Positions 797 through 18,082 of a stretch of 25,580 nucleotides of DNA are shown here, one piece after another. How positions within the stretch are numbered: position 1 is the stretch's first letter; every line of letters starts with the position of its first letter. Source of the DNA: Candidatus Dormiibacterota bacterium (GTDB lineage Bacteria; Chloroflexota; Dormibacteria; Dormibacterales; Dormibacteraceae); the NCBI GenBank assembly GCA_003151665.1, contig PLYD01000252.1, forward strand, positions 19,674 through 45,253, written 5' to 3'. The translations under genes were made by a program, and so were the position numbers. The notes beneath the pieces were generated by a model. That model was not told the origin of the DNA and made no database searches. It saw only the letters and a list, made by a program, of their open reading frames with translations.

Positions 797-1956
797 CAAC
801 CCACGCGCTCCTGGGCCCATCCGCGAGAAGCGAGGTCCGAAGCGATAGTCGCTTCGGCGGCGGCAGTGGCGGCCACCTCTTGGGCGGCAGCGGCAAGGCT
901 TCGACTCGTGTCTGCGATGAGCTGGATGGCGAGCCTGACGCTGCCGCTCGAGTTGGTCTCTTGCTGCACAGCCGGGACGATCTTGCCGCTCGCTTCTGCC
1001 AGCGCTTCGGTAATGCGCATCCAGAGGTTCAGCTGCTCGCCACGTCGCTCGATCGCCAAAACAGCCTCGCCAGTGGTCGCCAGGGCCCCGTCGGTGAGTT
1101 TGGCGATCTGAGCCGCCGCAGCCATCGAGCGCTCAGCGAGGCGGCGGACCTCGTCTGCAACCACCGCAAAGCCCCGGCCGGCTTCGCCTGCTCGTGCGGC
1201 TTCGATCGCGGCATTGAGCGCGAGCAGCGCAGTCTGGTCGGAGATGTCCTTAAGCAGCTCCAGGACCGTCTGGATCTCATCAACCCGCCTCGCGTTGGCT
1301 TGCGTGAGGTCGCTCGACGCTTGAAGGTCCGTATGGGCGAGCTGGATGTTGGCGCGGAGCTCTGCGGTCTTGGTGACCATGCCCGTGACAGACTCCTTGA
1401 TCACGGCGGAGCTGGCCGCGAGTGATTCGAGCTCGGCGGAAGTATTGGCGGCCGCGTTGCCCTGCTCACTGCTGGCAACTGAGAGTTGCTCTGCGGCAAT
1501 CGAGAGCCGGGCCGCTGCGTCGCGTGCTTCTCGCAGCATTCGCGGCCCCTCACTGACGATGTTGTCGACCATCGCATTGAAGGTCTCTGCCAGGCGGCGG
1601 GTCTGTCCGCCGCCGCCTGGAATCGCACGGGCTTGCAGAGCGCCGGATTGAAAGTCCGCGGCCGCGCTTGAGAGCGCCATCACCGGGCGCGCGGTGAACC
1701 AGGTGGCAATCGCAAGCAACCCAACGAGGGCGGCCAGGGCGCCGATTCCAAGCCACGACGCCATCAACCCCGGGTAGAAAGCTGCGAGGACGAAGACCGG
1801 CAGAACCACAATGGTTGAGGCGCCAAACGCCCAGGCAAAGAAGCTTTGCCAAGGTCTGTTGCGGGGAGCCTCCGATCGCCCCGGCCTGGCGATATTGAGC
1901 ATCACGACCTCGGCTGGCCGAGGCGCTGGGGCGGGAAGGCCTTTCCTAAGCTCCAT
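796..1956 (-). CDS. Methyl-accepting chemotaxis protein lacking an extracytoplasmic sensor domain
   Basis: A 386-residue chemoreceptor, about 260 residues shorter than its two upstream neighbours. After a 38-residue cytoplasmic leader come two membrane segments (about 39-60 and 66-87) joined by only a few residues, so no periplasmic or extracellular ligand domain exists. A HAMP-like linker follows (about 88-140), then the signalling helix hairpin, whose tip is at about 239-276 ([20 protein letters not shown], then [17 protein letters not shown]), the most conserved part of the family. The ATG at 1956 has a GGAGGAG ribosome site and overlaps the end of the upstream receptor by 11 nt. It may sense membrane state, respond through its short leader, or work in mixed arrays with the other two. 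No C-terminal CheR-tethering pentapeptide is seen. Confidence 0.9.
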
Positions 1957-3880
1957 TGTCAGCGTCTCCTCCGTGTTCCCAGCCGGAGTCGGCGAGCTCC
2001 GCCGCGAGCTCACCCTGCCGCGTGGCTGCGGACGCGATCTCCTGGGCGGTGGCGGCCACCGATCGGCTGCCCTCTGCAATGCGCTCGATCGCAATGCCCA
2101 CCTGATCGGTGGATGCGCGTTGCTGTTGATGCGCGTCTTGCATATGGCCTCCCGCCTTGGCCACTTCCGCCATCAGGCTCAGGCCACGTTCCATCTGCTT
2201 GATGCTCTTCTCGAGGGCCATCACGGTCTCGCTGCTCTGGGTCTGGGCGCCCTCGACGATGGTCGCGATCTGTGCGGCGGCGGCTTTGGAGCGCTCGGCC
2301 AGCCGCCTCACCTCATCGGCGACGACCGCGAAACCCCGACCGGAGTCACCCGCGCGAGCAGCTTCGATGGCCGCGTTGAGCGCGAGAAGGTTGGTCTGAT
2401 CGGCGATGTCGTTGATGAGCTCGAGGATGCCTTCGATCTCGTTGACGCGACCAGCCAGGGCCATGGTGCGATCGCCGGAAGCTCTGAGGTCGGTTTGTGC
2501 AAGCTCGAGGCTTGTTCGAGCTTCGGCAGATTGCGACCCAACCCGGTTCATGGTGTCGGCCATGGACACGGTGGTGCGCGCCAGCTCCTCCATGCTCGCG
2601 GATGTCGCTGTCGCGGCGGTCGTCTGTTCGAACGTTGCCGCGGCGAGCTCCTTCGCCGCAGTCGAGAGCTTGGTCGAGGAGTCGGCCACCTCACCTTGCA
2701 GGCGCGAGAGCACGCTGCTGAGACGCTCCAGCATCCCGTTGAATGCAGCGCCGAGCACACGCATCTCGTTGCCACCGGTGAGACTCACCCGCACTGTGAG
2801 ATCGCCGGATTCCACGCGCGCTGCGACTCGAGAAAGCACGGTGATCGGACGGATCGTGAGCCGTGCAAGGAAAATTGCGAAAGCGACGACGAGCAACGTC
2901 CCGACCAGCAGGGTCGCGAGCGTCAGGCGCTCCAACGTGTACGCAGGCGCCAGGCCGGCGGCAACATCGGTCGAGGCCACCACGACCATGTCGGTGTCGG
3001 TCGGGGCATACCCAGCGAACACATCGCGATTTCGGTAGTCCGAGATGTGTGAGGAGCCGGCGCCCGTGGTGAGTGCTTGGTTGACCACGCCGACCTCCGC
3101 CCTTACGCTCAGCGTGCCTCTGGCCCCCAGGCCCTGATCGTTCGTCAGCGGCCCCCAATCCGAGCTCAAGACCATGAGGTGATCACTGTTCGCCACATGG
3201 ACCTCCTGTTGAGGGGTTGGGGCGCCCAGGAGACCGCTCAGCTTGGCGACCAGCAGGTCGCCGGCTACCGCGCCCTGTGAAGCGCCGTTCGCTCCGATAA
3301 TGGGTGAGGTGATGATCCAGTCGATCCCGGCCTTGCCGTTGCTGATCGGTTGCTCGGTCGCGTTGTACAGAGCCTGCCCGAACCACGGCGCCCGGCCGAT
3401 GGCCGTCAGGTCGGCATAGAGGGAGGTCGCCGCGATCATAGTGCCCGTCTGATCCACGATCTCAATCGCTTGAAAGGCAGGGTCGGATGCGTTTTCCAGC
3501 GGGGTACCGATGGGGCCGCGACGGCCGGCCGGGGCGGCCGCTTCACGCGCAAGCTGCGCGAGGTACGCCTGGGAGGCGGAGATCCATTGTCCGATCCGGT
3601 CGGCCGTGGTCGTGGCGCTGGCTTGCGCCTCGAACTTGGCCTCGTGCTCGCTTGACTGAAGTCCCTGCGTATACATGAGCACACCGAGGATGGCCATCAG
3701 CGGCAGCGAGATGAGCAATGAACCAGCCAGGACGCGCATGAAGAAGGTGTCCGCCGGCACCCGTGACCGCGGGCGCGGCACTGGGCCCATGGTCCGGACT
3801 GCTTTGACGCTGATGGGAATCACCGGAGCGAGCTGGAGTGCGTTCTGATCACGCGGCTCCGTTCGCTTTCTAAGCTCCAC
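1946..3880 (-). CDS. Methyl-accepting chemotaxis protein with dCache-type sensor
   Basis: A 644-residue transmembrane chemoreceptor. The layout is a cytoplasmic leader (1-47), TM1 (about 50-70), a large extracytoplasmic domain of dCache type (about 71-315, ending with [20 protein letters not shown]), TM2 (about 319-340), HAMP (about 341-395) and the cytoplasmic signalling hairpin with its tip at about 494-531. The GTG start at 3880 is chosen because it has a GGAGG site just upstream and sits in the same 11-nt overlap (GTGGAGCTTAG) seen at the next junction, giving the shared leader VELRK. dCache domains bind small molecules such as amino or organic acids; the ligand here cannot be read from sequence. 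The cytoplasmic half is close to that of the upstream receptor, which suggests tandem duplication. Confidence 0.93.
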
Positions 3881-5825
3881 GTGGGCGACCCTCCGGTTTT
3901 TCCCAGCCGGAACCGGCGAGCGCGGAGGCGAGCTCGCCTTGTCGCGCGGCGGCCGACGCGATCTCCTGCGCGGTGGCAGCCACCGAGCGACTGCCCTCGG
4001 CGATGTGCTCGATGGCAACCACGACCTCTTGAGTCGATGAGCGCTGCTGCTGGCTGGCGAGCCGAACCTGACCGCTCACCTCGGACATCGCCCGCATCAT
4101 CGCGAGGCCGCGCTCCATCTGCTTCACGCCCTTCTCCAGCGCCATCACCGTTTCGCTGCTCTCGGCTTGGGCGCCCTCGACCAGCTTCGCGATCTGGGCC
4201 GCCGCAGCCTTGGACCGCTCCGCCAACCGTCGTACCTCGTCCGCGACGACCGCGAAGCCTCGGCCCGCATCGCCCGCCCGCGCGGCTTCGATGGCGGCAT
4301 TGAGCGCGAGCAGGTTGGTCTGGTCGGCGATGTCGTTGATGAGATCGAGAATGCCCTCGATCTCATTGACCCGGCCGGCAAGCGCGAGCGTGCGATCGCC
4401 TGATGCCTTGAGGTCGGTCTGTGCGAGCTCGAGGTTGGTCTGGGTCTCTGAGGCCTGGCTCGCGACGCGATCGACAGTTTCCGCGACGGCTGCAGAGCTC
4501 CGCGCGAGCTCTTCCATGCTGGCCGAGGTGGCAGTGGCCGCTGTGGTTTGCTCGAAGGTGGCCGAAGCCAGCTGCTCGGCCACTGCAGACAGCTTGGCCG
4601 CGGACTCGGTGACCTCACCCCGAAGGCGGAAGAGCACGCCGCTCAGCCGGTCGACCATGGCGTTGAACGCGTCGTTGAGCCTGCGAACCTCGCCGCCGCC
4701 CTTTAGGTTCACGCGCGCCGTGAGATCTCCGGCTTCGACCTGGGTCGCAGCGCGAGCCAGCGCGATGATCGGCCTCGTGGTCAGGATTGCCAGCACGATT
4801 GCGAATCCGATCAACAAAAGCGTGCTCAGCCCCTGCAGCAGCGAAGTTCGAAACTCCTGAGCCTTGACAGGAGCCAGAGCACTGGCTGTGTCGATGGATG
4901 CGACCACCACCCAGTTCAATGCGGGAATTGGTTCGAACCCGGCGAAGACCGAATGATTTCTGTAATCGACGGTCTGGCTTGCCCCGGCGCCGACGCTTGT
5001 CGCCTGGTGGTACAACGCGCTTTCGCCGACGACCGTGAGAGCACCCGCGGCAACGATTTGGGTCTCCTTGAGGACGCCCCAAGCCGAGCTGTACAGGACG
5101 AAATGCTGTGCGTTGAGCAGGTGCACCTCCTGGTCGCTGACCGTCGACACGTCAAGGCCGTACGGGTTGAGCAGTCTGCCCAGCACTGCCACAGTCAGGT
5201 CGCCGACCAACACACCTTGAGGTTTGTTGTCCGTGCCGACGATCGGCGCGGTCATGATCCACTCGAGGCCGGTCTGCCCCCGAAGCACCACCGGCCCCAT
5301 CGTCTCGACGCTGAGACTGTTGAGGAAAGTGGAGTCGGTGGGCGTCGGGGACAAGGCCAGGCCTGGTTGTGAAACCGCTAACGACTTTCCGTTGCGGTCG
5401 TAGATCTGGAAACCGTCGAATGTCGACTGGGCCTGAGAGAGAGCCACGAGCCCGGCCGTGAGGGTAGGACCCTGCAGCTCATCGACGCTGTTCTGAGCGA
5501 TCGAGCGTATCTGGGCCCTCCGCTCAGCGACAAAGTCGTTTATGCGTACAGCAGCGCTCGCGGCGGTTGCTTCGGCGCGAGCCTTGGCGCTGTCGATGCT
5601 CGTTTGAGCGCTCCAGTTGGCCATGACGAAACCCAAGACGATGGCGACCGGGACGTAGACCAACAGCACGCCGGCAACCACCCGAAAGAAGTAGCCGTCG
5701 ACCGACATCCAGCCCCACCGCCGCTGCGGCGCGCGAGTAGGCCTGCCGGGGGCCTCGAGCACGCGGAGCGTCCGCATCTTCACAGGCGGTACCGGGGCCG
5801 TTGGAGGCCCTCGTCGAAGCTGCAC
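3870..5825 (-). CDS. Methyl-accepting chemotaxis protein with dCache-type sensor
   Basis: A 651-residue chemoreceptor and the first of three in the operon. A 46-residue proline- and arginine-rich cytoplasmic leader precedes TM1 (about 47-69). A dCache-like extracytoplasmic domain spans about 70-325 and ends with [20 protein letters not shown], a close match to its neighbour. TM2 is about 330-350, HAMP about 352-400, and the signalling hairpin tip about 501-538. The start is GTG at 5825, giving the leader VQLRRG, which parallels VELRK and MELRK in the other two receptors. An AAGGG ribosome site lies immediately upstream. It follows the response regulator by 88 nt on the same strand. The C-terminus has no NWETF-like tether. 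The ligand is unknown. Confidence 0.93.
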
Positions 5826-5864
5826 CCCTTCGTACTACGCTCCAGGGCCTGTTTTGTCGCCATG

Positions 5865-5888
5865 CAGGGGCACTGCGAGCCCCCCCTG
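5865..5888 (-). other. Possible hairpin between the response regulator and the first receptor gene
   Basis: A 6-bp inverted repeat, CAGGGG at 5865-5870 and CCCCTG at 5883-5888, separated by 12 nt, in the 88-nt gap between the response regulator and the receptor operon. No T-run follows in the transcribed direction, so it is unlikely to be an intrinsic terminator. It could be an mRNA processing or attenuation element, or chance in GC-rich DNA. Confidence 0.2.
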
Positions 5889-5913
5889 TAACGGGATGGC
5901 CCAATCGAGGCGG

Positions 5914-6609
5914 CTAGAGGTCGATCAGCCCTTTGCGCGCTGCCGCGATGACCGCCTGGAGCTTTGAGTGGACCTGCAGCTTTTCAATCACGTGGCGCAC
6001 GTGCCACTCGACCGTATGGGGTGCAATTCCGAGGTTCTTCGACATCGCGGTCGTATCCAGCCCTTCGGCCAGCAGGTGGAGGATGTCGAGCTCGCGAGGC
6101 GTGAATTCTGCCATGAGCTGCTCGTGTTCGCGCTTCTTGCTGAGCACCCCACGCTGGCGAGCAATCGCGCGGGCGAACAGCTCGACCGGGATGAGGACCT
6201 CGCCCCTCGACGCCTTCCGAACCGCCTCGATGATCTGGTCCGCTGTCGCATCCTTCGTCAGGTAGGCGGTAGCGCCGGCGTCAACGGCGTCCAGCAGCGC
6301 CGTTTCAGACTCATCGGCGCTGTGGAACACGATCGCCGCCTCGGCGTGCTCGCTCTGGATCATGCGCGCCGCCTCGGGCCCGGTCACGTCCGGGAGCCGG
6401 AAGTCCATCAATACAACGTCCGGCCGCTGCAGTGCGGCTGACTTGACTGCGTCGGCCCCCGTTGCAGAAACACCTGAAACGGCGAAGTCGGGCTGCCCTT
6501 CGAGGACGCGGGCGAGCGCGGACGCCAGCAGAGGATGGTCCTGGACGATCAAGACGTGCACACGGCGAGCCGCCGGATCACCAGCTGGCGCCACCTCCGC
6601 GTTGCGCAC
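5914..6609 (-). CDS. NarL/FixJ-family response regulator with LuxR-type HTH
   Basis: A 231-residue two-domain response regulator. The receiver (about 17-132) has an acidic-pocket position reading Q23-D24 (the family norm is D/E-D), phosphoacceptor Asp69 in VVLMDFRLPD, Ser97 at the switch position and Lys119 in LTKDA. The C-terminal GerE/LuxR helix-turn-helix is at about 169-225 (FTPRELDILHLLAEGL, then TVEWHVRHVIEKL). It should bind DNA as a phosphorylation-controlled dimer. The GTG start at 6609 gives a 16-residue leader before the receiver; the GTG at residue 17 is an alternative. It lies upstream of the chemoreceptors on the same strand. It may therefore be the output of this chemosensory pathway, making it a gene-expression type rather than a flagellar type, or simply a neighbour. 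No partner kinase other than the CheA fragment is visible. Confidence 0.9.
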   Translation of the reverse strand: MRNAEVAPAGDPAARRVHVLIVQDHPLLASALARVLEGQPDFAVSGVSATGADAVKSAALQRPDVVLMDFRLPDVTGPEAARMIQSEHAEAAIVFHSADESETALLDAVDAGATAYLTKDATADQIIEAVRKASRGEVLIPVELFARAIARQRGVLSKKREHEQLMAEFTPRELDILHLLAEGLDTTAMSKNLGIAPHTVEWHVRHVIEKLQVHSKLQAVIAAARKGLIDL

Positions 6610-6746: not shown

Positions 6747-7585
6747 GTGAGGGCACGGGTGCTTGGGGCGGGGGGCAGCTGGGCTCGGAGCTGATGCGGC
6801 TCGTGCCTGGTGCCACCGGCCTTTGCGCCACGACCTTCGGTTTCGGACCGCGCCGGGATCGAAGCCGCGTGCGCTTACTACCGCCCGGAGGTGATGTTGA
6901 ACTGCGCCGCCTACAACGCTGTCGACAAGGCTGAGATCGAGCCGGAGCTCGCTTATGCGGTGAACGCTTCGGGCGCGGAGAACGCGGCGCTCGCTTGTTC
7001 CCGCCACGGCGTGCGGCTGATCCACTTCTCCATCAACTTTGTGTTCGACGGCCGGCTTGACCGGCCCTACACAGAGAAGGACGAGGCTCAACCCCTGAGC
7101 ACGTACGGCAGGTCGAAGCTGGAGGCGAAAGGTCGGCCCTGGCGGCCCTGCCCGCGGCCCTGGTGATCCAGACCGCCGCGGTTTTCGCTGATCGGGGCTC
7201 GGAGATTAAAGGAGGGAGCTTTCCTCAGCGCATCGTCGAGCGAGCCCGGGGTGGCGAGCGGATCCGGGTGGTTTCCGACCAACGCGTGAAACCGACCTAT
7301 GCTCGGGACCTGGCGCGCGACGCAATCAAGCTTGCGGCCGGCGACCTGAGTGGCCTGGTTCACGTCGTCGCCGCCGGCGGTTGCGGCTGGGATGACTTCG
7401 CCCGCGCAGCGCTGGCGGCGTGCGGGGTGGAAGCTGATGTCGAGCCCGTCACCACGGCGGAGCTAGCGGCGCCGGCTGCGCGGCCCCTCACCGGTTGCCT
7501 TGGGTCGGTGCGCACTGACGCCCTCAGGCCATGGCAGGAAGGAGTCGCCGAGTGGGCGGCCGGCTGGGAGGGAGGAGAGGGATGA
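6747..7585 (+). pseudogene. rmlD: dTDP-4-dehydrorhamnose reductase (RmlD) remnant, three frameshifts
   Basis: The homology to RmlD, the last enzyme of dTDP-L-rhamnose synthesis, is split over three frames. GTG at 6747 begins the nucleotide-binding start (RVLGAGG). A G-run at 6770-6775 is one base short, and GQLGSELMRLV continues in another frame. A second shift near 6832-6838 leads to SVSDRAGIEAA and then LNCAAYNAVDKAE, FVFDG and the active-site block STYGRSK (Tyr-xxx-Lys kept). A third shift near 7130 leads to VIQTAAVFADRG, PTYARDLARDAI and the C-terminus ending at 7585. The usual S-T-D-Y-V-F-D-G reads S-I-N-F-V-F-D-G, losing Thr and Tyr, which favours true decay. One or more of the shifts could still be an assembly error in a G/C-rich run. 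No other rhamnose gene is in the window. Confidence 0.78.
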
Positions 7586-7850: not shown

Positions 7851-8411
7851 TTGCACAGATTGATCAGTTCGAGGGAGGCGGCCGAGCGCCTGGGCGTCAG
7901 CCAGGCGACTGTTCTTCGCGCGGTTGCGAGGCGAGCCCTTATGCCTGCTGAAACCACGCCCGGTGGACACCACCGATTTCGCTTAGAGGATGTCGAGGAG
8001 TACGCGATTGCAGCAGCGCCCAATTTGATCAGCGGCACCAAGCTGATCGGCAGCCGAGAGGTCGCGCGCCTTATCGGTGTCAGCCAGCACACCGTGATCA
8101 GGGCGTGCCGCGAAGGTCGCCTGGTCGCCGACGAGGTGACGCCAGGAGGCCACCACCGGTTCTCAGAGGCCCGCATCCGGGAACTGGCGCCGCGTGGTTG
8201 TGAGTTGATCGGCACCGGAGCGGCGGCCCGCACGCTCGGTTTGAGCGTCGACAAGCTCAGGCGAGCCGTTCAGCAAGGCACCGTGAGCCTGGCGACGACG
8301 ACGCCGGGCGGCCACCGCCGCTTCGCGGCGGCCGACCTCTCGACGAGTGCCCGTTATCTAAACGGCAATGGCAACGACCTGCGCGCACGAGGGACCGATG
8401 CAGGCGCTTAA
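7851..8411 (+). CDS. DNA-binding protein with three tandem BldC/MerR-like HTH domains
   Basis: A 186-residue protein made almost wholly of three copies of one HTH unit (HTH_17/excisionase/BldC-like) at about 4-51, 65-112 and 119-166. Each copy has a helix-turn-helix (for example REAAERLGVSQATVLRAV) and the wing motif TPGGHHRF or TPGGHRRF at 36-43, 97-104 and 151-158. The third copy has diverged most in its helices. No effector-binding or dimerisation domain is present. The C-tail is Asn-Gly rich, like the loops of the next protein. The start is uncertain: TTG at 7851 is the first start codon after the in-frame stop at 7824-7826, TTG at 7860 is an alternative, and neither has a ribosome site. 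It lies 16 nt before the synthase gene and is probably the operon's own regulator. Confidence 0.85.
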   Translation: MHRLISSREAAERLGVSQATVLRAVARRALMPAETTPGGHHRFRLEDVEEYAIAAAPNLISGTKLIGSREVARLIGVSQHTVIRACREGRLVADEVTPGGHHRFSEARIRELAPRGCELIGTGAAARTLGLSVDKLRRAVQQGTVSLATTTPGGHRRFAAADLSTSARYLNGNGNDLRARGTDAGA

Positions 8412-8427
8412 CGGCGAAGGCGAGTCC

Positions 8428-10965
8428 ATGCGCAGGGTTTCCGTGGGTCTTGGAGGTTCCTTTGTTCTCCTGGCCGCCGCGGTTGCGGTCCTTGTTCTCG
8501 ATCTCTTTGAGCCGCTGACCCGCTACGGCGTGGCCGCCGTGCTGGCGCTGGCCGGGCTGATCCTGCTTGCATCCGAGATCCTCTGGCTGCGCAAGCGGGA
8601 AGACCGCGGTCAGCTCCTTTGGACGGCCCTTCTCGACGGAATCCTGGTGGCCGCAGTGGTCCTTGCGATGACGCCCCTTGTGGCGATCATTCGCGGTTTT
8701 GCTGACCTCATCGCGCAGTCGAAAACGCTGAGCGGCGCCGATTGGCTCGGTTACGGTTTCGCGTTCACGGGCCTATTCCTCGGCGCGGTGTTCTTCGCCT
8801 ACGCCGTCAAGTACTACCTGAGCACCGTGATCGTGCTCATCACGACAATCGCGTTCGGTCGAAACGGTGGCAACGGCAACGGCAACGGGAAGCGCCGGGC
8901 CGGTCTGAAAAACGGCTACTACATCGACCTCGGCTACCACCCGTTCGTGTCGGTGCACGTCGCTGCCTACAACGAAAGAAGGGTGATCGAGCGGCTGCTG
9001 GTCGCTCTGTCCCAGCTCGAGTATCCCGAGTACGAGGTGATCGTCGTCGATGACTCGACCGACGACTCGAAGCAGATCCTCGAACGCTGGGTGAACACAC
9101 CGAGATTCAAAATCCTCCATCGCAACAGCCGCGCCGGTTACAAGGGCGGCGCTCTGCGCGAAGCGCTGAAGGTGATGGATCCGCGAGCGGAGTACGTGAT
9201 CATCTTCGACGCAGATTCGGTGCCTTTCCCGGACGCGATCGATCGCTTTCTGCCGCATTTCTATTACGAGAACGGGAACGGCAAGAACGGTCATGGCAAT
9301 GGCCACCTCGCGCCCGAGGCCGAGCAGAACGGGCACGATCGGCACGAATACAAGAGGCGCGAGAACGTCGCCGCGGTGCAGAGCTACCAGTGGCACGTGT
9401 TGAACAAGTCCGAGAGCTGGCTCACCGAGGCGGTGCGAGCGGAGTACGCGGGCAGCTACATGGTGGAGCGGCCGTTCCAGGACGCGGTGGGGTCGCTGAA
9501 GATGGTGGCGGGAACCTCCTACATGATCAGGGCGGATTTGCTCCGTGAGATTGGGTGGGGGACCAGCATCACCGAAGATTGGGAGCTCACCCTCAAGCTG
9601 TATGTGCGCGGCTACAAGGTCGCTTACACGCCGTGGGCCGAGACGCCTGCCGAATGCGTAAGCACGTTCTCCCGCCTGGCTCGTCAGCGAATGCGCTGGG
9701 CGGAGGGACACACGTACAACGTCCGCAGATACTTCCTTCCGATCCTGCTATCGCCGTTTGTGACCTTCCTGGAGAAGCTCGAGTTCCTCTTCGACACCAC
9801 TTACTACCTGCAAGCAGGACTCTTCATCGTGGGCACCCTGGCCTGGCTGCTGTCCGAGGTGTTCTTCCACACGCACGTGCCAGGTTGGACCGCGACGCTC
9901 GGCTGGGCGCTGCTCTTCTCCAACATCCTTGCACTGCCACTGATGAACCTCGGCGGGCTCCTCCTGGAGGAGGCGCCTCCCCGTGACCTTCAAGGCGTGC
10001 TGGGTGCGGTCGTTCTGTCGTTTGCGCTGGTGCCCTTTCAAGGGTGGGCCGCTTTCAAGGGCCTGCTCAGTAAGGAGGAGGGACCGTGGTTCCGAACACC
10101 GAAGACCGGCCGGATCACCGACGAGGTCCACCACCTTCGCCGCCTCAACCTGCTTCGGCGCTGGCTCCTCGGCCACCGCGCCGCAGTCGGCGAAGGCCGC
10201 CGCGCGGATGCGCGTCCGTCAGCTGGATCTCCAACCGGGCCGGTTCGCTCGGTTCCCGTCAAACAGCGGCTGGCGCATCGCAGGCTCGGGTGGGTGGTGG
10301 TGGGAGCCATCGGACTGACCATCGCTGCGCTTGCGTGGGGATCCTCCGGCGTGCCGGTCGTCGAGTCGGCGGGCAACTCCCTGTACCTGCACGGGACCGG
10401 CGTTTCGCCCGCTTGCGTGCCTTCAAGCATGGATCGGTCGGTCGGCTTCCGCTCCCCACCCTGCTCGGTAACGTCCAATGGAACCACCTCGACCTATTCG
10501 TTCACGCCCACTCCGGCGGGGCAGACGGTCAGTGGGACATGGTCGTTCCTCTTCTACTGGAATGGCGGCTCGGGCGCGGTCAAAGACACCATCGGCCTCA
10601 GCGCCGGCGTGCTCACTGGCGGCGTCTGCGTCGTCCAGATCCCGACCGGCGGCGCGACCTGGACCACCACCTACGGAAGCCGCGGAATCAACACCACCAG
10701 CCCGGTCACTGTCAACACGAGTGCGTCCCAGACGGTGGTGATTCCGCCGGGCGGCACGCTCTGCCTCATCGTCACCCTTTCCCACCGCACAGGGGGCGCC
10801 ACCCACTTCCTCTATGACGGCGTCGCTGGGACTGCCGACACGCAACTGATCACGCCATCCCTCGTGGTCCCCGAGTCGGTTCTCGGTTTCGTCGGCCTGG
10901 CGCTGGCGATCCCGCTGATAACTGGCAGGCGCCGGCTGCTGTCCTTCTTCAGGGTGCGTGGATGA
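8428..10965 (+). CDS. Processive GT2 polysaccharide synthase fused to an ectodomain with PEP-CTERM-like sorting tail
   Basis: An 845-residue membrane protein. Three to four N-terminal helices (within about 10-145) lead to a cytoplasmic family-2 glycosyltransferase domain. All cellulose/hyaluronan-synthase-type motifs are present: DDS (208-210), DAD (261-263), TED (382-384) and QRMRW (420-424). Further helices follow (about 455-545). A second module then begins with a basic patch and a membrane helix (about 621-637), resembling a signal peptide. It continues as a Thr/Ser/Gly-rich beta-type ectodomain (about 645-812) and ends with VPES (814-817), a hydrophobic helix and RRR (834-836), the three-part layout of exosortase sorting tails. 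Asn-Gly repeats lie at about 147-154 and 282-293. The ATG at 8428 follows an AAGGCGAG site; ATG at 8368 or 8398 would overlap the regulator gene. The stop overlaps the exosortase ATG by 4 nt. The polymer is unknown. Confidence 0.88.
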   Translation: MRRVSVGLGGSFVLLAAAVAVLVLDLFEPLTRYGVAAVLALAGLILLASEILWLRKREDRGQLLWTALLDGILVAAVVLAMTPLVAIIRGFADLIAQSKTLSGADWLGYGFAFTGLFLGAVFFAYAVKYYLSTVIVLITTIAFGRNGGNGNGNGKRRAGLKNGYYIDLGYHPFVSVHVAAYNERRVIERLLVALSQLEYPEYEVIVVDDSTDDSKQILERWVNTPRFKILHRNSRAGYKGGALREALKVMDPRAEYVIIFDADSVPFPDAIDRFLPHFYYENGNGKNGHGNGHLAPEAEQNGHDRHEYKRRENVAAVQSYQWHVLNKSESWLTEAVRAEYAGSYMVERPFQDAVGSLKMVAGTSYMIRADLLREIGWGTSITEDWELTLKLYVRGYKVAYTPWAETPAECVSTFSRLARQRMRWAEGHTYNVRRYFLPILLSPFVTFLEKLEFLFDTTYYLQAGLFIVGTLAWLLSEVFFHTHVPGWTATLGWALLFSNILALPLMNLGGLLLEEAPPRDLQGVLGAVVLSFALVPFQGWAAFKGLLSKEEGPWFRTPKTGRITDEVHHLRRLNLLRRWLLGHRAAVGEGRRADARPSAGSPTGPVRSVPVKQRLAHRRLGWVVVGAIGLTIAALAWGSSGVPVVESAGNSLYLHGTGVSPACVPSSMDRSVGFRSPPCSVTSNGTTSTYSFTPTPAGQTVSGTWSFLFYWNGGSGAVKDTIGLSAGVLTGGVCVVQIPTGGATWTTTYGSRGINTTSPVTVNTSASQTVVIPPGGTLCLIVTLSHRTGGATHFLYDGVAGTADTQLITPSLVVPESVLGFVGLALAIPLITGRRRLLSFFRVRG

Positions 10966-11543
10966 CCCGGCAAGACCGCGACGGCCTGAACATGACCTTG
11001 ATCGCGATCACGTGCGCGCTCCTGATGTTGCTGCCTTTCGTGACCACGTTCGACGATTTGCTCACCTCGTGGGCACTCGCATTGGGCGCCAACAATCCAC
11101 TCCAGGGCATCGTCCCGGTCGAGGCCCGCATGGTGGTTGGCCTGCTTGCACTCGTCGGCGTGCACGCTGCCGCTTCTGGGAGCCATCTCGTCGTCTGGGA
11201 TTCGGCCGGGTCCATGCACACGCTGTTTATCTCGTGGAATTGCATCGGGTGGCAGAGCCTCATCTTGTTGGGGGTCAGCTTCCTTTCCGGCTTCCGCGGA
11301 AACCAGTCGTTGGAAGCGCGAGTTCAGGTGGTGCTCATCGGCGTTGCGGGCACCATGCTTTTGAACCTGATGCGCGTGGCGGCAGTCGCTGCCATCGCAG
11401 CGACGCTGGGACAGACTCCAGCGGTTCTTTTTCACGACTACGGCGGCACAATAATCGTGGTCGTCTGGCTCTTCACCTTCTGGATCTTCGTCCAACGATT
11501 CATCCTGGTCGCGCCCGCCGAAGAGGTTGAAGTCATCGCATGA
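10962..11543 (+). CDS. Exosortase/archaeosortase-family transpeptidase
   Basis: A 193-residue multi-pass membrane protein with the three invariant residues of the exosortase/archaeosortase family in order. They are Cys94 in SWNCIGWQSLILLG, Arg138 in LLNLMRVAAV and His158 in LFHDYGGT. These enzymes cleave C-terminal tripartite tails (short motif, hydrophobic helix, basic end) of exported proteins and attach or release them at the cell surface. It is shorter than the roughly 280-residue EpsH/XrtA type and lacks its extra C-terminal domain, resembling compact forms. ATG at 10962 overlaps the synthase stop (ATGA), and its own stop overlaps the next start (ATGA), so it is translationally coupled on both sides. 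The neighbouring synthase ends in a fitting VPES tail and is the obvious substrate candidate. Subfamily and substrate are inferred. Confidence 0.88.
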   Translation: MTRQDRDGLNMTLIAITCALLMLLPFVTTFDDLLTSWALALGANNPLQGIVPVEARMVVGLLALVGVHAAASGSHLVVWDSAGSMHTLFISWNCIGWQSLILLGVSFLSGFRGNQSLEARVQVVLIGVAGTMLLNLMRVAAVAAIAATLGQTPAVLFHDYGGTIIVVVWLFTFWIFVQRFILVAPAEEVEVIA

Positions 11544-13768
11544 AGCGTTGGTTGCGCCTCGGTCTGCAGACCGCGTTTGGCCTATTTCTGCTTTGGCTGT
11601 GGCTTCGCACAGTCTCGCTGCCTGAGGTCGTCAGCCACGCGCGGGTGCAGAGCTGGCCAGCGGTTGTGTTGATGATCCTTCTGTTCCTGGTGACGAGCGT
11701 CATCAGAGCAAGGCGCTGGCTATTGCTCCTGCGCCCTCTGGCGCCGGTGGGGATGGTGCGAGCGTTCGCCATGAGCGCGGCCGGCGGACTGCTCAACTAT
11801 GTCGTTCCCATCCGCTCCGGCGATGCCGCCAGGGCGTGGTGGCTGTGGCGGCGCCACCGCGTGCCGGCAGGTTCCGCACTGGCCACAATCGTTATCGACA
11901 AGGCGTGTGACCTGAGCGCCGTTGCCGTTGTTCTCGCCATCCTCGAGATCGTCGCCGCCACCGGAGCGGTCAAGGCGCCGAGAGGCTTGCTGGGCGCAGC
12001 CGCTCTTGCGGTCGCTCTTCTTGCCGCAGTGCTGGGCACTGCACTGCTCGGACCCCGGATTGCACGTTCGTCGTTGGCACGCAAGTTGTTGCCGGCAAGA
12101 TTCGCCGCCGGGCTGGCCGGCCAGGCATTCGCGTTTCGCGCCGGTGCGCGTGGCCTTTGGACTCCGGCACTCGCCGCGCGGCTCGGGGCCCTGACTGCCC
12201 TCGCCCTGCTAATCGACGCATTCAACTTCACTCTGCTGTTCGTCGCGGTGGGGGTGCAGGTGCCAACGCTGCAGGCCATGGCTGCGTACCCGGCTTTGCT
12301 GCTGAGCTTCGCGATCCCGGCTGGACCAGGCTACCTGGGCAACCTCGAGGTGGCCGGTTCCCTTGTGCTCGGAGGGGGCCTTGGTCTCGCTCCGGCAGTA
12401 GCCGCGGGCGCGATAGTGCTGTACCACGCGCTCACCGCCGGCTATGCGCTCGGACTGGGACTCGTGGGATTTCTGCTGGTGGGCGGGCGCCGGCGAGTGC
12501 GCGCGGGTGGCCCGCGCCAGATCGCAGTATTTCACTGCGGCTTCACGTATTCGGGTGGTGGTGAGCGCATCGTCATTGAGGAGGTCCTGGGGCTCAGAAG
12601 GCGTGGCTTCAAAGTGGAGTGCTACGCCCCAACTGTTGACGCCTCGCGCTGCTATCCGGACCTGATCGGAGAGGTTCGCGTGCGCACGTTTCTACCGCAG
12701 CTCCCGCGATGGTTCCCCTACCGCGAGGCGATCCAGATGGCCGCGGCTTCGCTGCTCATGCCGCTATACGCCTGGCGGTTGCGCGGTATCGATGCGATAG
12801 TCGCCTGCAACCAACCGAGTGCGTGGATCGCATGGTGGGCCGCGCGTCTTATCGACGTCCCATATGTCGTTTACCTCAATCAGCCGAATCGGCTGGTCTA
12901 TCCCAGGAGCATCGATCGCGAGACTGGTTGGGTGGCAAACGCCGACTACAGGCTGCTGGCCGGCATCGTGATGCGCGCCACCAAGTTCGTCGCCTGGGCT
13001 GACCGGCGCTCAGTGCAAGAGGCGGACCAATTGCTCGTCAACGGCGACTACATCGGCGACATCATCCGCGGCATCTACAAGCGCGAGGCTGTCGACTGCC
13101 CTGCGGGCTGCCACGTCGCCGCATCAGGATTTCCGCTACCTCGCGAGGCGCGCTTCGCAGGCGGCTTGACCATCAACGGCTACCCGATCCGGCGGCCATA
13201 CGTGCTGCTCACCAACCGCCACTACCCGCAGAAGCGGTTCGACCTGGCGATCCGGGCGATGCACGAGGTCCGCGCGCGCCACCCCAAAGTCCAGCTCGTG
13301 ATCCCTGGGCAAGCTACCTCACACACCGCCGTGTTGCAGGCCTTGACCACCGAATCAAAGCTCAACGACGCAGTGCTGTTCCTCGGCGCGATAACGGAGG
13401 AGGAGCTGAATCGCCTCTACGAAGGTGCGGCCGTGTACGTCTATCCCGCACCCGAGGAGGACTTTGGGATGGGCGTGATCGAATCGATGGCTAAGGGAGT
13501 GCCCGTGGTCGCGTGGAACCAAGCGGGTCCGACCGTAACGGTCGGCCCTGGCACCGGGCACCTGGCCGAGCCTCTCGAGGTGGGGGACTACGCGGCCGGC
13601 ATCACGTCGTTGCTGGACGACCCGACGGCCAACCAGGCCACCGGCGAGCGTGCCTTCGAATGGGCGCGTCGGTTCGATTGGGAACGGCACCTCGACACGC
13701 TGCAGATCACTGTCCTGGCAGTCGCTCGATCGCATGAGCGAGTCTCGTCAGAGGCGGCCACCGCATGA
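11540..13768 (+). CDS. UPF0104/AglD-like membrane domain fused to GT4 glycosyltransferase
   Basis: A 742-residue fusion. Residues about 1-320 form a multi-helix domain of the lysylphosphatidylglycerol-synthase-TM/UPF0104 (AglD C-terminal, 'flippase-like') family, with the typical blocks LNYVVPIRSGDAARAWWLWR (85-104), IDKACDL (119-125) and AIPAGPGYLGNLE (258-270). Residues about 326-735 form a GT-B glycosyltransferase of family 4. It has an N-terminal Rossmann start with a glycine loop (FTYSGGGERIV), a donor-binding helix region (TNRHYPQKRFDLAI) and the EX7E motif (E640 to E648 in PEEDFGMGVIESM). The GT domain should act in the cytoplasm on a lipid- or membrane-linked acceptor. The membrane domain may move or present the product, although its activity in this family is not settled. 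ATGA overlaps join it to both neighbours. The two parts are separate genes in many organisms. Confidence 0.87.
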   Translation: MKRWLRLGLQTAFGLFLLWLWLRTVSLPEVVSHARVQSWPAVVLMILLFLVTSVIRARRWLLLLRPLAPVGMVRAFAMSAAGGLLNYVVPIRSGDAARAWWLWRRHRVPAGSALATIVIDKACDLSAVAVVLAILEIVAATGAVKAPRGLLGAAALAVALLAAVLGTALLGPRIARSSLARKLLPARFAAGLAGQAFAFRAGARGLWTPALAARLGALTALALLIDAFNFTLLFVAVGVQVPTLQAMAAYPALLLSFAIPAGPGYLGNLEVAGSLVLGGGLGLAPAVAAGAIVLYHALTAGYALGLGLVGFLLVGGRRRVRAGGPRQIAVFHCGFTYSGGGERIVIEEVLGLRRRGFKVECYAPTVDASRCYPDLIGEVRVRTFLPQLPRWFPYREAIQMAAASLLMPLYAWRLRGIDAIVACNQPSAWIAWWAARLIDVPYVVYLNQPNRLVYPRSIDRETGWVANADYRLLAGIVMRATKFVAWADRRSVQEADQLLVNGDYIGDIIRGIYKREAVDCPAGCHVAASGFPLPREARFAGGLTINGYPIRRPYVLLTNRHYPQKRFDLAIRAMHEVRARHPKVQLVIPGQATSHTAVLQALTTESKLNDAVLFLGAITEEELNRLYEGAAVYVYPAPEEDFGMGVIESMAKGVPVVAWNQAGPTVTVGPGTGHLAEPLEVGDYAAGITSLLDDPTANQATGERAFEWARRFDWERHLDTLQITVLAVARSHERVSSEAATA

Positions 13769-15505: not shown

Positions 15506-18082
15506 ATGAACTCACCGCGAGCGCGGCTCGCAGCGCTCGACGGACTACTGCTTACGGTCGCCGTGGTCGTCTTTGGTGTGGCAACCGGCGCCTTCATCGG
15601 CGCCGTCAAGGGTTACGACGGTTGGGGCCACTTGACCAAGGTGGTGCTGGTGCTCAGGGATTTTCCGGCCGTCGACTGGAACTACGACTGGTACAGCGGA
15701 TCGCCGTTTTTTCTCGGTGGATATCCGCCTCTGTTCTACCTCGCGGCGAGCGCTCTTGCGAGGCTCGGCGTGGATGCCATGGTCGCGATGAATCTACTCA
15801 TGGCTCTGAGCTATCTGGCGATGACGTTGAGCCTCTACGGCCTTGTGCGGATTGTCACAGGCTCGAGGCTTGCGGGCATCGTTGCGGCCGGCTTGCTGCT
15901 GGCGACGCCGGCGCTGTGGACGCCTTACGTCGAGTCCGGTATGTACACGAGGGTTTTCGGCATGGGCTTCACATCGCTCGCCGTCTTGCTGGCGGTCGTA
16001 TATCTGCGGCGGTCTTCTCCGGGGCCATACGTGATGTGCCTGGCGGCAGTCTGGGGTGCATTGAACAGCCACATAGTGCTCGGGGCGCTGGCCATTTTCG
16101 CCATCGGTCTGGTGGTGGTTCTCGTCCCCGACAGCACCGGGCGCGCGAGGCCGTGGCGCGTAGCGCTGCTGGTTCCCCCGGTGCTCCTCAGCGCCTACTA
16201 CTACGTGCCCCTGGTCTTTTACATACAGTCGGGCAGCCAGGTGACTGCTGCGTATCCTGCCCTCGGGATCGGCAGCCTTGTGTCGCCGGCCGCGCCCGTC
16301 ATCAATCCGCCCCTTGTCCCGTTGCTGCCGATCACTGTGCTCGCTCTGATCGTGTGGCTCCGATTCCGATCGCAGCAATCCATTGCAGCAACAACCAGGC
16401 TGATGTTGGCATGCGGTCTGGTCTGTGCGGTCCTTCTGCTGTATGCGCTAACGCCAATTCCCCATATCGCCGGGCTCCAGAGCGCCGATATGTTGTTCCT
16501 TCTGTCCTGGTTTCTCGCCGCGGTGACCGGGCTCGCGCTAGGCTCCATCAAAACCCGGGCTGTTGCCTGGCAGCGAAACACTACCGCCGTGGTCCTGGTG
16601 GCCGCGACACTCGTGTCCATCCTGGCTGTGGTCCCTTTCGTTACGCAGACGATGCTGCGCGAGCCGGCGCGGCCCGAAACCACAACGGCCGGCTGGCAGC
16701 CGATCGATTCGACCGAGACCAACTTCCGTATCGCAAGTCCGGCCGACAACCTCTCCGTTTGGCTCAACGCGGTCTACGACGTGCCGCAGACGCGCGGCTA
16801 CGCACCGGGACCTCAGGTCACGAACCCCGTCTGGCAGTTCTGGCTTGAGTCGACGGCGTGGAATGCGGACGCAAGCGAGAAACAGCGAACGTTCCTGTTC
16901 GATTGGTACGCCGTGAAGTGGATCTACGTGCCGGCCCCTTACATACCCATCACCGCCGGTGTGCTGCCGAAGTTCAACGGACACCCTGACCTTTACGAAG
17001 TAGTCCCCTCCAGGTCTGGCGGCACGAGTCTGACCTTTTCCTATCTGAGACCGACCCCGATCGCGCTCGCTACCAACGCGCCCGCCATTCTTGTGATCGG
17101 CCAGCCCGAGAACTATCAGATTGTCTTTCGGGATCTGTCATACAGCGGCTTCGACACCGCACACGCCATACCCGTCCAGGGGGGTCCCTACGTTGACGAC
17201 TACAGTGCACAGGAGCTCGCGCAATTCGATGAGGTGTTGATCTACGGCGGCGGCGCACACAACAGCGCACGCGCGTACGACCTGCTGAATGGCTATGTCA
17301 GGTCGGGCGGCGGGCTGATCGTCGAGTCAAGCGGATCTCCCCTGGTGGGCGGTCCCGGCATAAACGAGCCGGTTCCAATCACTGGAGCCACCCGCCAAGA
17401 CGTAAACGGCGACTGGCGGTTCAAGTCGGCGAGCTCGCCGATCACAGACGGCATCGACTTCTCGAGTTTCGGCCCGCCCCGTTACAGCGGCGGCCCGTGG
17501 ACGGTATCTGCCGCGAGTGGAGTGCGGAGCTGGGCGCATACAGTCCTGTGGTCGGGTGCGGCTAGCGTAGTGGTTGCCGGACAGCTCGGTCAGGGTCGGG
17601 TGGTGTGGTCCGGCCTTAACCTTCCGTTTCACATCGACAGTTACGCAAGCGCAGAGGAGTCGCGGTTTCTGACCACGGCGATGGCATGGGCGAGCCGCTC
17701 AAACAATGACATGGCAGCAATTTCGTCAGCTCATAAAGATGGGCCGCAGCAGATGACGATCTCGGTCGACTCCAACGCCCGCGGCGTCCTGTTCAAAGAG
17801 AGCTGGTTCGACCGCTGGCATGCTTACGTAAACGGACGTGAGGTAAAAGTCCTTCCTGCAGGCCCCGGCTTTATGTACGTTCTGCTTCCCAAGGACACGC
17901 GGTTTCCTGCAGCGGTCCAGTGGCGCTACGAGAAGTCGGTGGTGGACTGGGCGGGCATCGTGGTATCTGTGGCGACGCTAATCGCGCTCGTTACGTGGCC
18001 GAGGTGGCGCGGTCCGGTCCGCAAGTCGTTTGGAGTCTGGTTTGATCGGCGAACCAGGATGTGGGCCGAAGAGGATGGATGA
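15506..18082 (+). CDS. Large GT-C/YfhO-like membrane protein with embedded ThuA/GATase-like domain
   Basis: An 858-residue protein. About eleven helices occupy residues 11-382, with Asp38 in KGYDGWGHL and a YPPLFY block (73-78) typical of GT-C or '6-pyruvoyl-tetrahydropterin-synthase-related' membrane proteins. A long extracytoplasmic part (about 385-805) follows. Within it, residues about 525-700 have the Rossmann-like pattern of ThuA/glutamine-amidotransferase-like domains (FDEVLIYGGGAHN, then RSGGGLIVESSG) without an evident nucleophilic Cys. The end (about 765-832) resembles YfhO: ESWFDRWHAYVNGREV, a small beta domain, then a final helix. YfhO and relatives help glycosylate wall polymers. 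ATG at 15506 has a TTGAGG site and lies 19 nt after the previous stop. The role is probably sugar transfer or recognition at the outer membrane face; the exact reaction is unknown. Confidence 0.75.
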   Translation: MNSPRARLAALDGLLLTVAVVVFGVATGAFIGAVKGYDGWGHLTKVVLVLRDFPAVDWNYDWYSGSPFFLGGYPPLFYLAASALARLGVDAMVAMNLLMALSYLAMTLSLYGLVRIVTGSRLAGIVAAGLLLATPALWTPYVESGMYTRVFGMGFTSLAVLLAVVYLRRSSPGPYVMCLAAVWGALNSHIVLGALAIFAIGLVVVLVPDSTGRARPWRVALLVPPVLLSAYYYVPLVFYIQSGSQVTAAYPALGIGSLVSPAAPVINPPLVPLLPITVLALIVWLRFRSQQSIAATTRLMLACGLVCAVLLLYALTPIPHIAGLQSADMLFLLSWFLAAVTGLALGSIKTRAVAWQRNTTAVVLVAATLVSILAVVPFVTQTMLREPARPETTTAGWQPIDSTETNFRIASPADNLSVWLNAVYDVPQTRGYAPGPQVTNPVWQFWLESTAWNADASEKQRTFLFDWYAVKWIYVPAPYIPITAGVLPKFNGHPDLYEVVPSRSGGTSLTFSYLRPTPIALATNAPAILVIGQPENYQIVFRDLSYSGFDTAHAIPVQGGPYVDDYSAQELAQFDEVLIYGGGAHNSARAYDLLNGYVRSGGGLIVESSGSPLVGGPGINEPVPITGATRQDVNGDWRFKSASSPITDGIDFSSFGPPRYSGGPWTVSAASGVRSWAHTVLWSGAASVVVAGQLGQGRVVWSGLNLPFHIDSYASAEESRFLTTAMAWASRSNNDMAAISSAHKDGPQQMTISVDSNARGVLFKESWFDRWHAYVNGREVKVLPAGPGFMYVLLPKDTRFPAAVQWRYEKSVVDWAGIVVSVATLIALVTWPRWRGPVRKSFGVWFDRRTRMWAEEDG

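Follow-up and report, generated by a model that had tools for sequence, protein, structure and literature searches.

Can a polysaccharide synthase carry its own sorting signal for an exosortase and, if so, which part of the chain is the substrate? The question is raised by two overlapping genes in a 25,580-nucleotide stretch of contig PLYD01000252.1 from Candidatus Dormiibacterota bacterium (GenBank assembly GCA_003151665.1, positions 19,674 to 45,253), hereafter the window. The first gene encodes a family 2 glycosyltransferase (GT2) synthase that runs on into an ectodomain and a tripartite C-terminal tail; the second encodes a small exosortase-like protein. A first-pass annotation, made from the letters alone, had suggested that the synthase itself may be the substrate of its neighbor. 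We find that the arrangement is real, conserved, and unusual, and we conclude with moderate confidence that it represents a dedicated exosortase system in which a GT2 synthase polyprotein is processed by the exosortase, its C-terminal half being the predicted substrate. The features in question are as follows.

8368..10965, forward strand: fusion gene encoding GT2 synthase, putative internal signal anchor, ectodomain, and VPES tail (865 residues; start at 8368, 8398, or 8428).
8935..9777, forward strand: GT2 catalytic domain (residues 190-470, with the Pfam match at about 190-495; PF13641, 75.6 bits; PF00535, 68.9 bits).
10285..10341, forward strand: putative internal signal-anchor helix, residues 640-658 (hydropathy; the preceding 78-residue linker has 18 Arg/Lys and 6 Asp/Glu).
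10360..10371, forward strand: candidate signal-peptidase-I-like site, residues 665-667 / 668 (conserved [VSAT]-x-[AST] motif).
10369..10863, forward strand: predicted extracytoplasmic beta-sandwich (jelly-roll) ectodomain with four Cys (AlphaFold2 mean predicted local distance difference test score, pLDDT, 67.9; fold matches; charge and Cys counts).
10867..10962, forward strand: tripartite tail, comprising VPES, a hydrophobic helix with an invariant Pro, and RRR (VPE(S/N/A) in 114 of 116 database entries; alignment A4).
10962..11543, forward strand: exosortase/archaeosortase-family gene (193 residues; ATGA overlap with the fusion; TIGR04178, 33.7 bits).
11241..11243, forward strand: Cys94 codon (invariant in 121 of 121).
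11373..11375, forward strand: Arg138 codon (invariant in 121 of 121).
11433..11435, forward strand: His158 codon (invariant in 121 of 121).

The fusion of synthase, ectodomain, and tail with an adjoining exosortase is confirmed as real and far from chance. As first annotated, one frame runs from a complete GT2 domain to the tail: DDS, DAD, TED, and QRMRW stand at residues 228, 281, 402, and 440, giving the signature of processive GT2 enzymes of the BcsA/PgaC/HAS type (D, DxD, (T)ED, and QxxRW, with flanking helices), and VPES and RRR stand at residues 834 and 854. In a 67-row alignment (P0001, 61 of the 116 database entries, and five loci), the GT2 motifs are invariant, as are tail residues P835, E836, and P849. 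The start proposed at 8428 is indeed an in-frame ATG, the third, but the database copy P0003 is identical to the window protein from residue 11 onward and hence starts at 8398.

A database search with residues 630-865 returned 116 proteins including the window's own, 108 of them 734-879 residues long and not all independent. A scan of genome contigs returned 42 loci: 18 close (L001-L015, L018, L027, L033), 16 distant (L016, L017, L019-L026, L028-L032, L034; frames of 630 to 2165 residues), and eight remote GT2 proteins (L035-L042). The tail is visible in nine distant frames (L016, L017, L019-L023, L025, L028) and was found in another frame for L029 (L166); the frames of L024, L026, L030, L031, L032, and L034 are truncated or interrupted before the tail is reached. 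The distant relatives, from Chloroflexota and Curtissbacteria, keep the same plan and add fused regulatory domains: an N-terminal receiver domain in L016, L017, L021, and L025 (those tested), with an MshEN domain also present N-terminally in L016 and L017, and N-terminal transposase-like helix-turn-helix (HTH) domains in L028 and in L178 (from a further genome of L028's phylum, with the GT2 frame truncated). Most named close relatives are metagenome-assembled genomes (MAGs) labeled Candidatus Dormiibacterota, Candidatus Dormibacteraeota, or Chloroflexi bacterium; single relatives are labeled Micrarchaeaceae archaeon, Actinobacteria, Eisenbacteria, and Acidoferrum.

The first-pass annotation had allowed that homologues with a separate ectodomain gene would expose the fusion as an assembly artefact. 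Such a join of two genes, by assembly or gene calling, might be read from 39 shorter, ectodomain-only database entries (128-388 residues), which start anywhere from residue 459 to residue 744 of the window protein. Because 33 of the 39 lie on contigs under 4 kb, we take these entries for truncated genes or calls begun at a later start; the six on contigs over 5 kb (P0241, P0243, P0245, P0253, P0260, P0265) may include a few genuine splits or frameshifts. With the fusion carried by the 108 long entries and by 36 genomes of the class, and kept in many genomes of the close family, we reject an artefactual join as having next to no probability.

By score and by residues, the 193-residue protein belongs to the exosortase/archaeosortase family. 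Its TIGR04178 score exceeds the curated cut-off of 23 bits, so that the family check proposed for it came out positive, and the triad Cys94, Arg138, and His158, correctly numbered from the outset, is invariant in 121 sequences, namely the window protein and the top 120 among 1490 relatives. The same Cys/Arg/His triad recurs in 41 of 41 members of a wider set that reaches 34% identity and includes a Curtissbacteria genome. The AlphaFold2 model is mostly helices with short strands (mean pLDDT 80.8). None of the named subfamilies tried (XrtX, XrtG, XrtR, ArtC, CrtC, thaumarchaeosortase) reaches its cut-off, the best being XrtX at 29.3 bits versus 170. PF09721 (Exosortase_EpsH), also suggested as a check, gives no match for the window protein at E <= 1, and some close relatives have it; a sequence search of solved structures gave nothing useful for the exosortase. 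The ATGA coupling noted earlier holds well beyond the window, where frames 8368-10965 and 10962-11543 share ATGA: a 4-base ATGA/GTGA overlap of fusion and exosortase is present at 20 of 20 selected close-family gene ends and at nine of 13 further ends, distant ones included (two of the nine repeat loci already counted), and is absent at L021, L025, L028, and one orphan fusion of G253.

The tail has the layout of an exosortase substrate in the wide sense, with a C-terminal motif, a hydrophobic helix, and a basic cluster in order. Its conservation, on which the first-pass annotation had made its proposal depend, is nearly complete, since the two of 116 entries that do not have VPE(S/N/A) are truncated.

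We next consider how closely enzyme and tail travel together in the sampled genomes, which are incomplete MAGs related to each other. The tail model used has 34 positions and was built from 30 tails of this fusion family. TIGR04178 matches all 12 genomes behind the loci, and the eight close ones (G001-G006, G010, G012) have one match each; each also has one strong tail (E <= 8e-11), in the fusion, with the next best at E 0.006 or worse. One enzyme with one adjacent target, the arrangement expected of a dedicated system, was thus found in eight of eight close genomes, and sister lineages have more. In the other four of the 12 genomes, the counts of exosortases and of tails at E < 0.01 are 2 and 5 in G007, 1 and 1 in G008, 2 and 2 in G009, and 3 and 3 in G011. 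A weak tail match in G006 (E 0.006, L167) has no convincing frame and was counted as chance. Among 201 genomes of the phylum, TIGR04178 matches 25 and the tail model nine at E <= 0.001; a profile of the window's exosortase subtype matches nine of the 25, the same nine that bear the tail, and the other 16 are without a tail match. A tail match in G131 (E 0.0086) was left out before counting. In the phylum of G011, TIGR04178 matches 15 of 285 genomes, 14 of them above the cut-off.

The class gives the sharpest picture. Among its 110 genomes, the tail is present in 36 (one weak match being left out of this count) and the GT2 part in 36, with 35 common to both. Both exceptions lie at contig ends: in G276, which has only the GT2 part, the contig stops within the fusion (L190), and in G178, which has only the tail, it starts within the fusion (L086). 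TIGR04178 matches 55 places in 45 genomes, and at 36 of these places the matched core is preceded, at a distance of 264-324 bases, by a tail, which puts the tail directly before the gene; the co-occurrence that the first-pass annotation had proposed to check is borne out. Seen from the tails, 36 of 44 stand directly before an exosortase. Five of the remaining eight lie at contig ends or in broken frames (G265, G284, G272/C243, G264/C177, G262). The other three are genuine orphans and belong to G253; for two of these no surrounding GT2 frame is visible, and the contig start truncates one of the two. A TIGR04178 match is present in 34 of the 36 tail genomes; in G265 and G284 the contig ends within the exosortase gene, and what is left of it partially matches the subtype profile. 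Exactly one tail with one adjacent exosortase occurs in 27 of the 36 genomes (raw count), and two such pairs occur in G269, G285, and G286; the one-target exceptions are otherwise at contig ends or in broken frames, save G253. The tail-less exosortases of the class (L143-L151, L068, L070, L074, L075) gave no match to the window-subtype profile (G268 left out).

Hypergeometric values for the co-occurrence (8e-16, 2e-26, and 2e-16) ignore the kinship of the genomes and so are not usable as probabilities. Rank correlations of divergence over 18 pairs were 0.57 for GT2 and exosortase, 0.59 for ectodomain and exosortase, and 0.84 for GT2 and ectodomain; this moderate co-divergence says little beyond shared descent. 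A different exosortase type, encoded in frames of about 540-650 residues and unaccompanied by this tail, is also present in the phylum (L060, L068, L070, L074, and others), and at L060 and L068 other tailed proteins lie just upstream of the exosortase.

Which part of the chain, then, would the exosortase act on? Hydropathy gives nine hydrophobic segments in the fusion (overlapping windows merged; a marginal segment at 741-759 left out). The helix at 640-658, already described as signal-peptide-like in the first-pass annotation, follows the positively charged linker and is followed by 173 residues with 5 Arg/Lys, 5 Asp/Glu, and four Cys, a distribution that fits a topology with the linker inside, the ectodomain outside, and RRR inside. 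At the end of the helix, in the 67 rows, column 665 (position -3) has V50 S14 A2 T1 and column 667 (position -1) has A40 S26 T1; A668 is present in 67 of 67 rows and P663 in 60 of 67. Such a composition at 665-668 is typical of signal peptidase I sites, and similar sites are seen by eye in L021, L016, and L028.

These features suggest a polyprotein that is probably cut twice, at the internal signal-peptidase-like site and at the tail. In the proposed sequence of events, the GT2 half would likely use a nucleotide sugar at the inner membrane to build a sugar polymer or glycolipid, and helix 640-658 would likely act as an internal signal sequence that exports the ectodomain. Signal peptidase may then cut near residue 667, parting the ectodomain from the synthase, a step whose chances we put at about even. 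The exosortase, through Cys94 with Arg138 and His158, would likely cut at VPE, whereupon the ectodomain would leave the membrane or join an acceptor. A single chain would fix the ratio and place of both halves, and we propose that, because it does so, a surface protein would be matured where the glycan emerges. The suggestion that the synthase itself is the substrate would thus probably hold for the ectodomain half, but not for the whole synthase, which is likely separated at the internal site.

If signal peptidase makes no cut, the ectodomain would stay tethered by helix 640-658, and removal of the tail by the exosortase would only free its C-terminal end or join it to lipid or glycan, so that a domain anchored at both ends would become a tethered, chain-guiding domain of the synthase; we regard this as unlikely. 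Helix 640-658 might just as well serve as an ordinary membrane anchor, and GT2 and tail occur together in 35 of the 37 class genomes that have either, the others being cut by contig ends, as expected if the joining is obligatory. Against a permanent tether stand the conserved V/S-x-A/S site with its upstream Pro at the helix end and the existence of the related module in unfused form. In G007, the tailed protein of L164 (683 residues, with N-terminal helices of its own) follows a fusion and shares 40.5% identity over 629 residues with the C-terminal region of that neighbor. L163 165-7409, a paralogue, is naturally split into a 484-residue GT2 and, after it, a separate frame of 1923 residues that has its own N-terminal helix and, as assembled, no tail. 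In G253, a tailed frame of 271 residues (L194) has no GT2, and a second such frame is cut by the contig start. Since stand-alone tailed modules exist, they support a reading of the C-terminal half as an exosortase-substrate module later fused to a synthase. The G253 tailed frames L194 949-1764 and L193 1-412 begin with CxxC motifs (CFHCGLPL and CFSCGLPL), which are odd for an exported protein. In G278, a second GT2 fusion beside an exosortase (L195 468-3095) ends AIEVDERSLPLAGVAVMIPLL... without VPE, its plan being otherwise the same.

Several observations weigh against a dedicated, twice-cut polyprotein. The signal-peptidase-like motif is not discriminating: the same composition threshold is attained by 15 of the protein's column pairs, a looser rule gives 67 of 67 for a pair after another helix, and the putative site is singled out by position alone. 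The distant relative L025 has, by eye, no clear site of this kind. By hydropathy, no N-terminal signal peptide was found in the fusion, its signal-like helix being internal. The window fusion departs from the substrate rules as stated in two papers, one giving an N-terminal signal peptide as constant in exosortase substrates (PMC3237569) and the other, a 2006 survey, reporting helices between signal peptide and tail only in one three-member family (PMC1569441). The PEP-CTERM model PF07589, proposed earlier as a check on the tail, gives no match on the window fusion at E <= 1, none among 20 ectodomain-plus-tail members, and none to the fusion tails of 11 related genomes at E <= 10, and no NCBIfam tail model reaches its cut-off for the four proteins tried; the tail is thus exosortase-like in its predicted organization and not PEP-CTERM by model. 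Because the tail model was built from this family, targets with very different tails would escape it. One enzyme with one target is also not general, as G253, within the class, has one exosortase and four tails, and outside the class the two exosortases and five tails of G007 and the one exosortase and three tails of G174 (one of the nine tail-bearing genomes of the phylum) do not have the dedicated arrangement.

Above its cut-off, PF07589 matches just one sequence in the 11 genomes, a frame of 67 residues in G001.

The closest precedent for the fusion is the AcsAB cellulose synthase (fused BcsA-BcsB) of Gluconacetobacter hansenii, which likewise joins a membrane GT2 synthase and an extracytoplasmic part in one polypeptide and is proteolytically processed into two proteins (PMC4877109). 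It differs in that the account of AcsAB in that source mentions no exosortase or tail, and in that the window fusion has no PilZ or BcsB-family domain among its Pfam matches at E <= 1. The likeness invites a reading in which an accessory ectodomain, as in AcsAB or BcsB, guides the nascent polymer, the last helix is a mere anchor, and the exosortase acts on other proteins, which we consider distinctly unlikely. A Pfam scan of the ectodomain in 20 members returned sub-threshold matches only, the best being CBM_56 (E 0.014) in one.

Compared with the PEP-CTERM/exosortase systems (EpsH, XrtA) and with cyanoexosortase B, the window shares the enzyme family, the tail of motif, helix, and basic residues, and the glycan neighbors (PMC1569441, PMC12188702), and differs in that its predicted substrate has multiple helices with an internal signal and the motif VPES-x(11)-P rather than Pro-Glu-Pro. 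Like dedicated sorting of the rhombosortase/GlyGly-CTERM type, it has a single target encoded beside its enzyme (PMC3237569); unlike those systems, it has the target module joined to a glycosyltransferase. The NCBIfam model names for XrtG/TIGR03111 and XrtP/NF053846 likewise point to GT2 proteins that go with an exosortase, and a table entry names an exosortase G system-associated GT2 (PMC8951740). The window proteins score far below the cut-offs of these models (31.9 of 363.95 for TIGR03111, 47.1 of 520 for NF053846, and 16.9 of 102.75 for XrtG), and TIGR03111 and NF053846, at 439 and 440 positions, are hardly long enough to include an ectodomain with a tail. Archaeosortase A and PGF-CTERM share the wider enzyme family and a tripartite tail, and differ in motif, in diverse substrates, and in C-terminal lipid attachment (PMC7157517). 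In the open-licence literature of PubMed Central, we found no description of a synthase that itself bears an exosortase tail. The first-pass annotation likewise knew of no described fusion of a synthase with a PEP-CTERM-like tail and a dedicated exosortase; AcsAB, TIGR03111, and NF053846 are partial precedents.

The archaeal system suggests another role for the GT2 half, as a glycolipid synthase supplying the exosortase's acceptor, as archaetidylethanolamine synthesis has been proposed to do for archaeosortase A. Haloferax ArtA-dependent maturation involves PssA and PssD (PMC7157517), and several relatives of the fusion are named 1,2-diacylglycerol 3-beta-glucosyltransferase by the Joint Genome Institute. 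These names are name transfer only, and the best NCBIfam matches of the fusion are PgaC_IcaA (91.9 bits, cut-off 422.3) and then CelA, all far below cut-off; we regard this acceptor-supplying role as very improbable.

The preferred reading, with the ectodomain half as substrate, can be extended tentatively: the exosortase may be a transpeptidase that ties the ectodomain to the glycan made by the GT2 half of the same chain, in a twice-cut polyprotein with built-in HTH/receiver/MshEN regulation, neighboring or fused. We hold this extension to be possible but rather doubtful. If it is true, the acceptor of a bacterial exosortase would be named; a 2025 paper on cyanoexosortase B treats the outer membrane, polysaccharide, or both as still possible attachment targets (PMC12188702). 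Because substrate and synthase are one chain, with one enzyme in the close genomes, the acceptor question could be addressed with two or three genes rather than with a large number of substrates. The proposal assigns a testable function to an operon conserved in Dormibacterota-type bacteria, uncultured soil bacteria in which polymer synthesis and protein anchoring are probably linked in one polypeptide.

The GT2 part has one further peculiarity. Asn-Gly repeats (NGNGNG...) break it twice, at about residues 164-174 and 300-330 of P0001, and at least four NG occur within the first 420 residues in 109 of 114 fusions, with about 1.3 expected from composition.

The genes around the fusion and exosortase include the following.

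7851..8411, forward strand: upstream regulator gene with three tandem excisionase/MerR-type HTH motifs (Pfam HTH_17, 81.5 bits, three stretches), overlapping the synthase frame.
11540..13768, forward strand: downstream flippase-like (LPG_synthase_TM) plus GT4 protein (PF03706, 102.7 bits; PF00534, 93.8 bits).
15506..18082, forward strand: downstream PTPS_related large membrane protein (PF10131, 28.6 bits, cut-off 26.4).

Also downstream are genes for a methyltransferase, an epimerase, and another GT2, which scores best against PgfS (242 of 500 bits). By gene content, the neighborhood looks like a glycan assembly cluster, and glycan-gene surroundings are described as usual for exosortases (PMC1569441). 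A homologue of the regulator was found by BLAST upstream of the fusion in 17 of 21 loci, a list in which two places are entered twice (L006/L085 and L012/L096); it was missed in L007, L010, L088, and L089. In the window's relatives, the HTH regulator is a separate gene that overlaps or abuts the synthase.

Upstream of these genes, window positions 1946-6609 on the minus strand encode two methyl-accepting chemotaxis proteins and a LuxR-type response regulator, and positions 7163-7585 encode the C-terminal part of an RmlD-type dTDP-dehydrorhamnose reductase, perhaps a remnant or continuing in another frame. At L094 3055-6609, a PAS-GGDEF-EAL protein is encoded upstream of the HTH, synthase, and exosortase genes, which hints at cyclic di-GMP control. 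In five genomes, weak PF07589 matches fall in frames of about 1200-1290 residues on the fusion's contig, 6-7 kb upstream of its tail; these frames may be the same gene as the PAS-GGDEF-EAL protein of L094.

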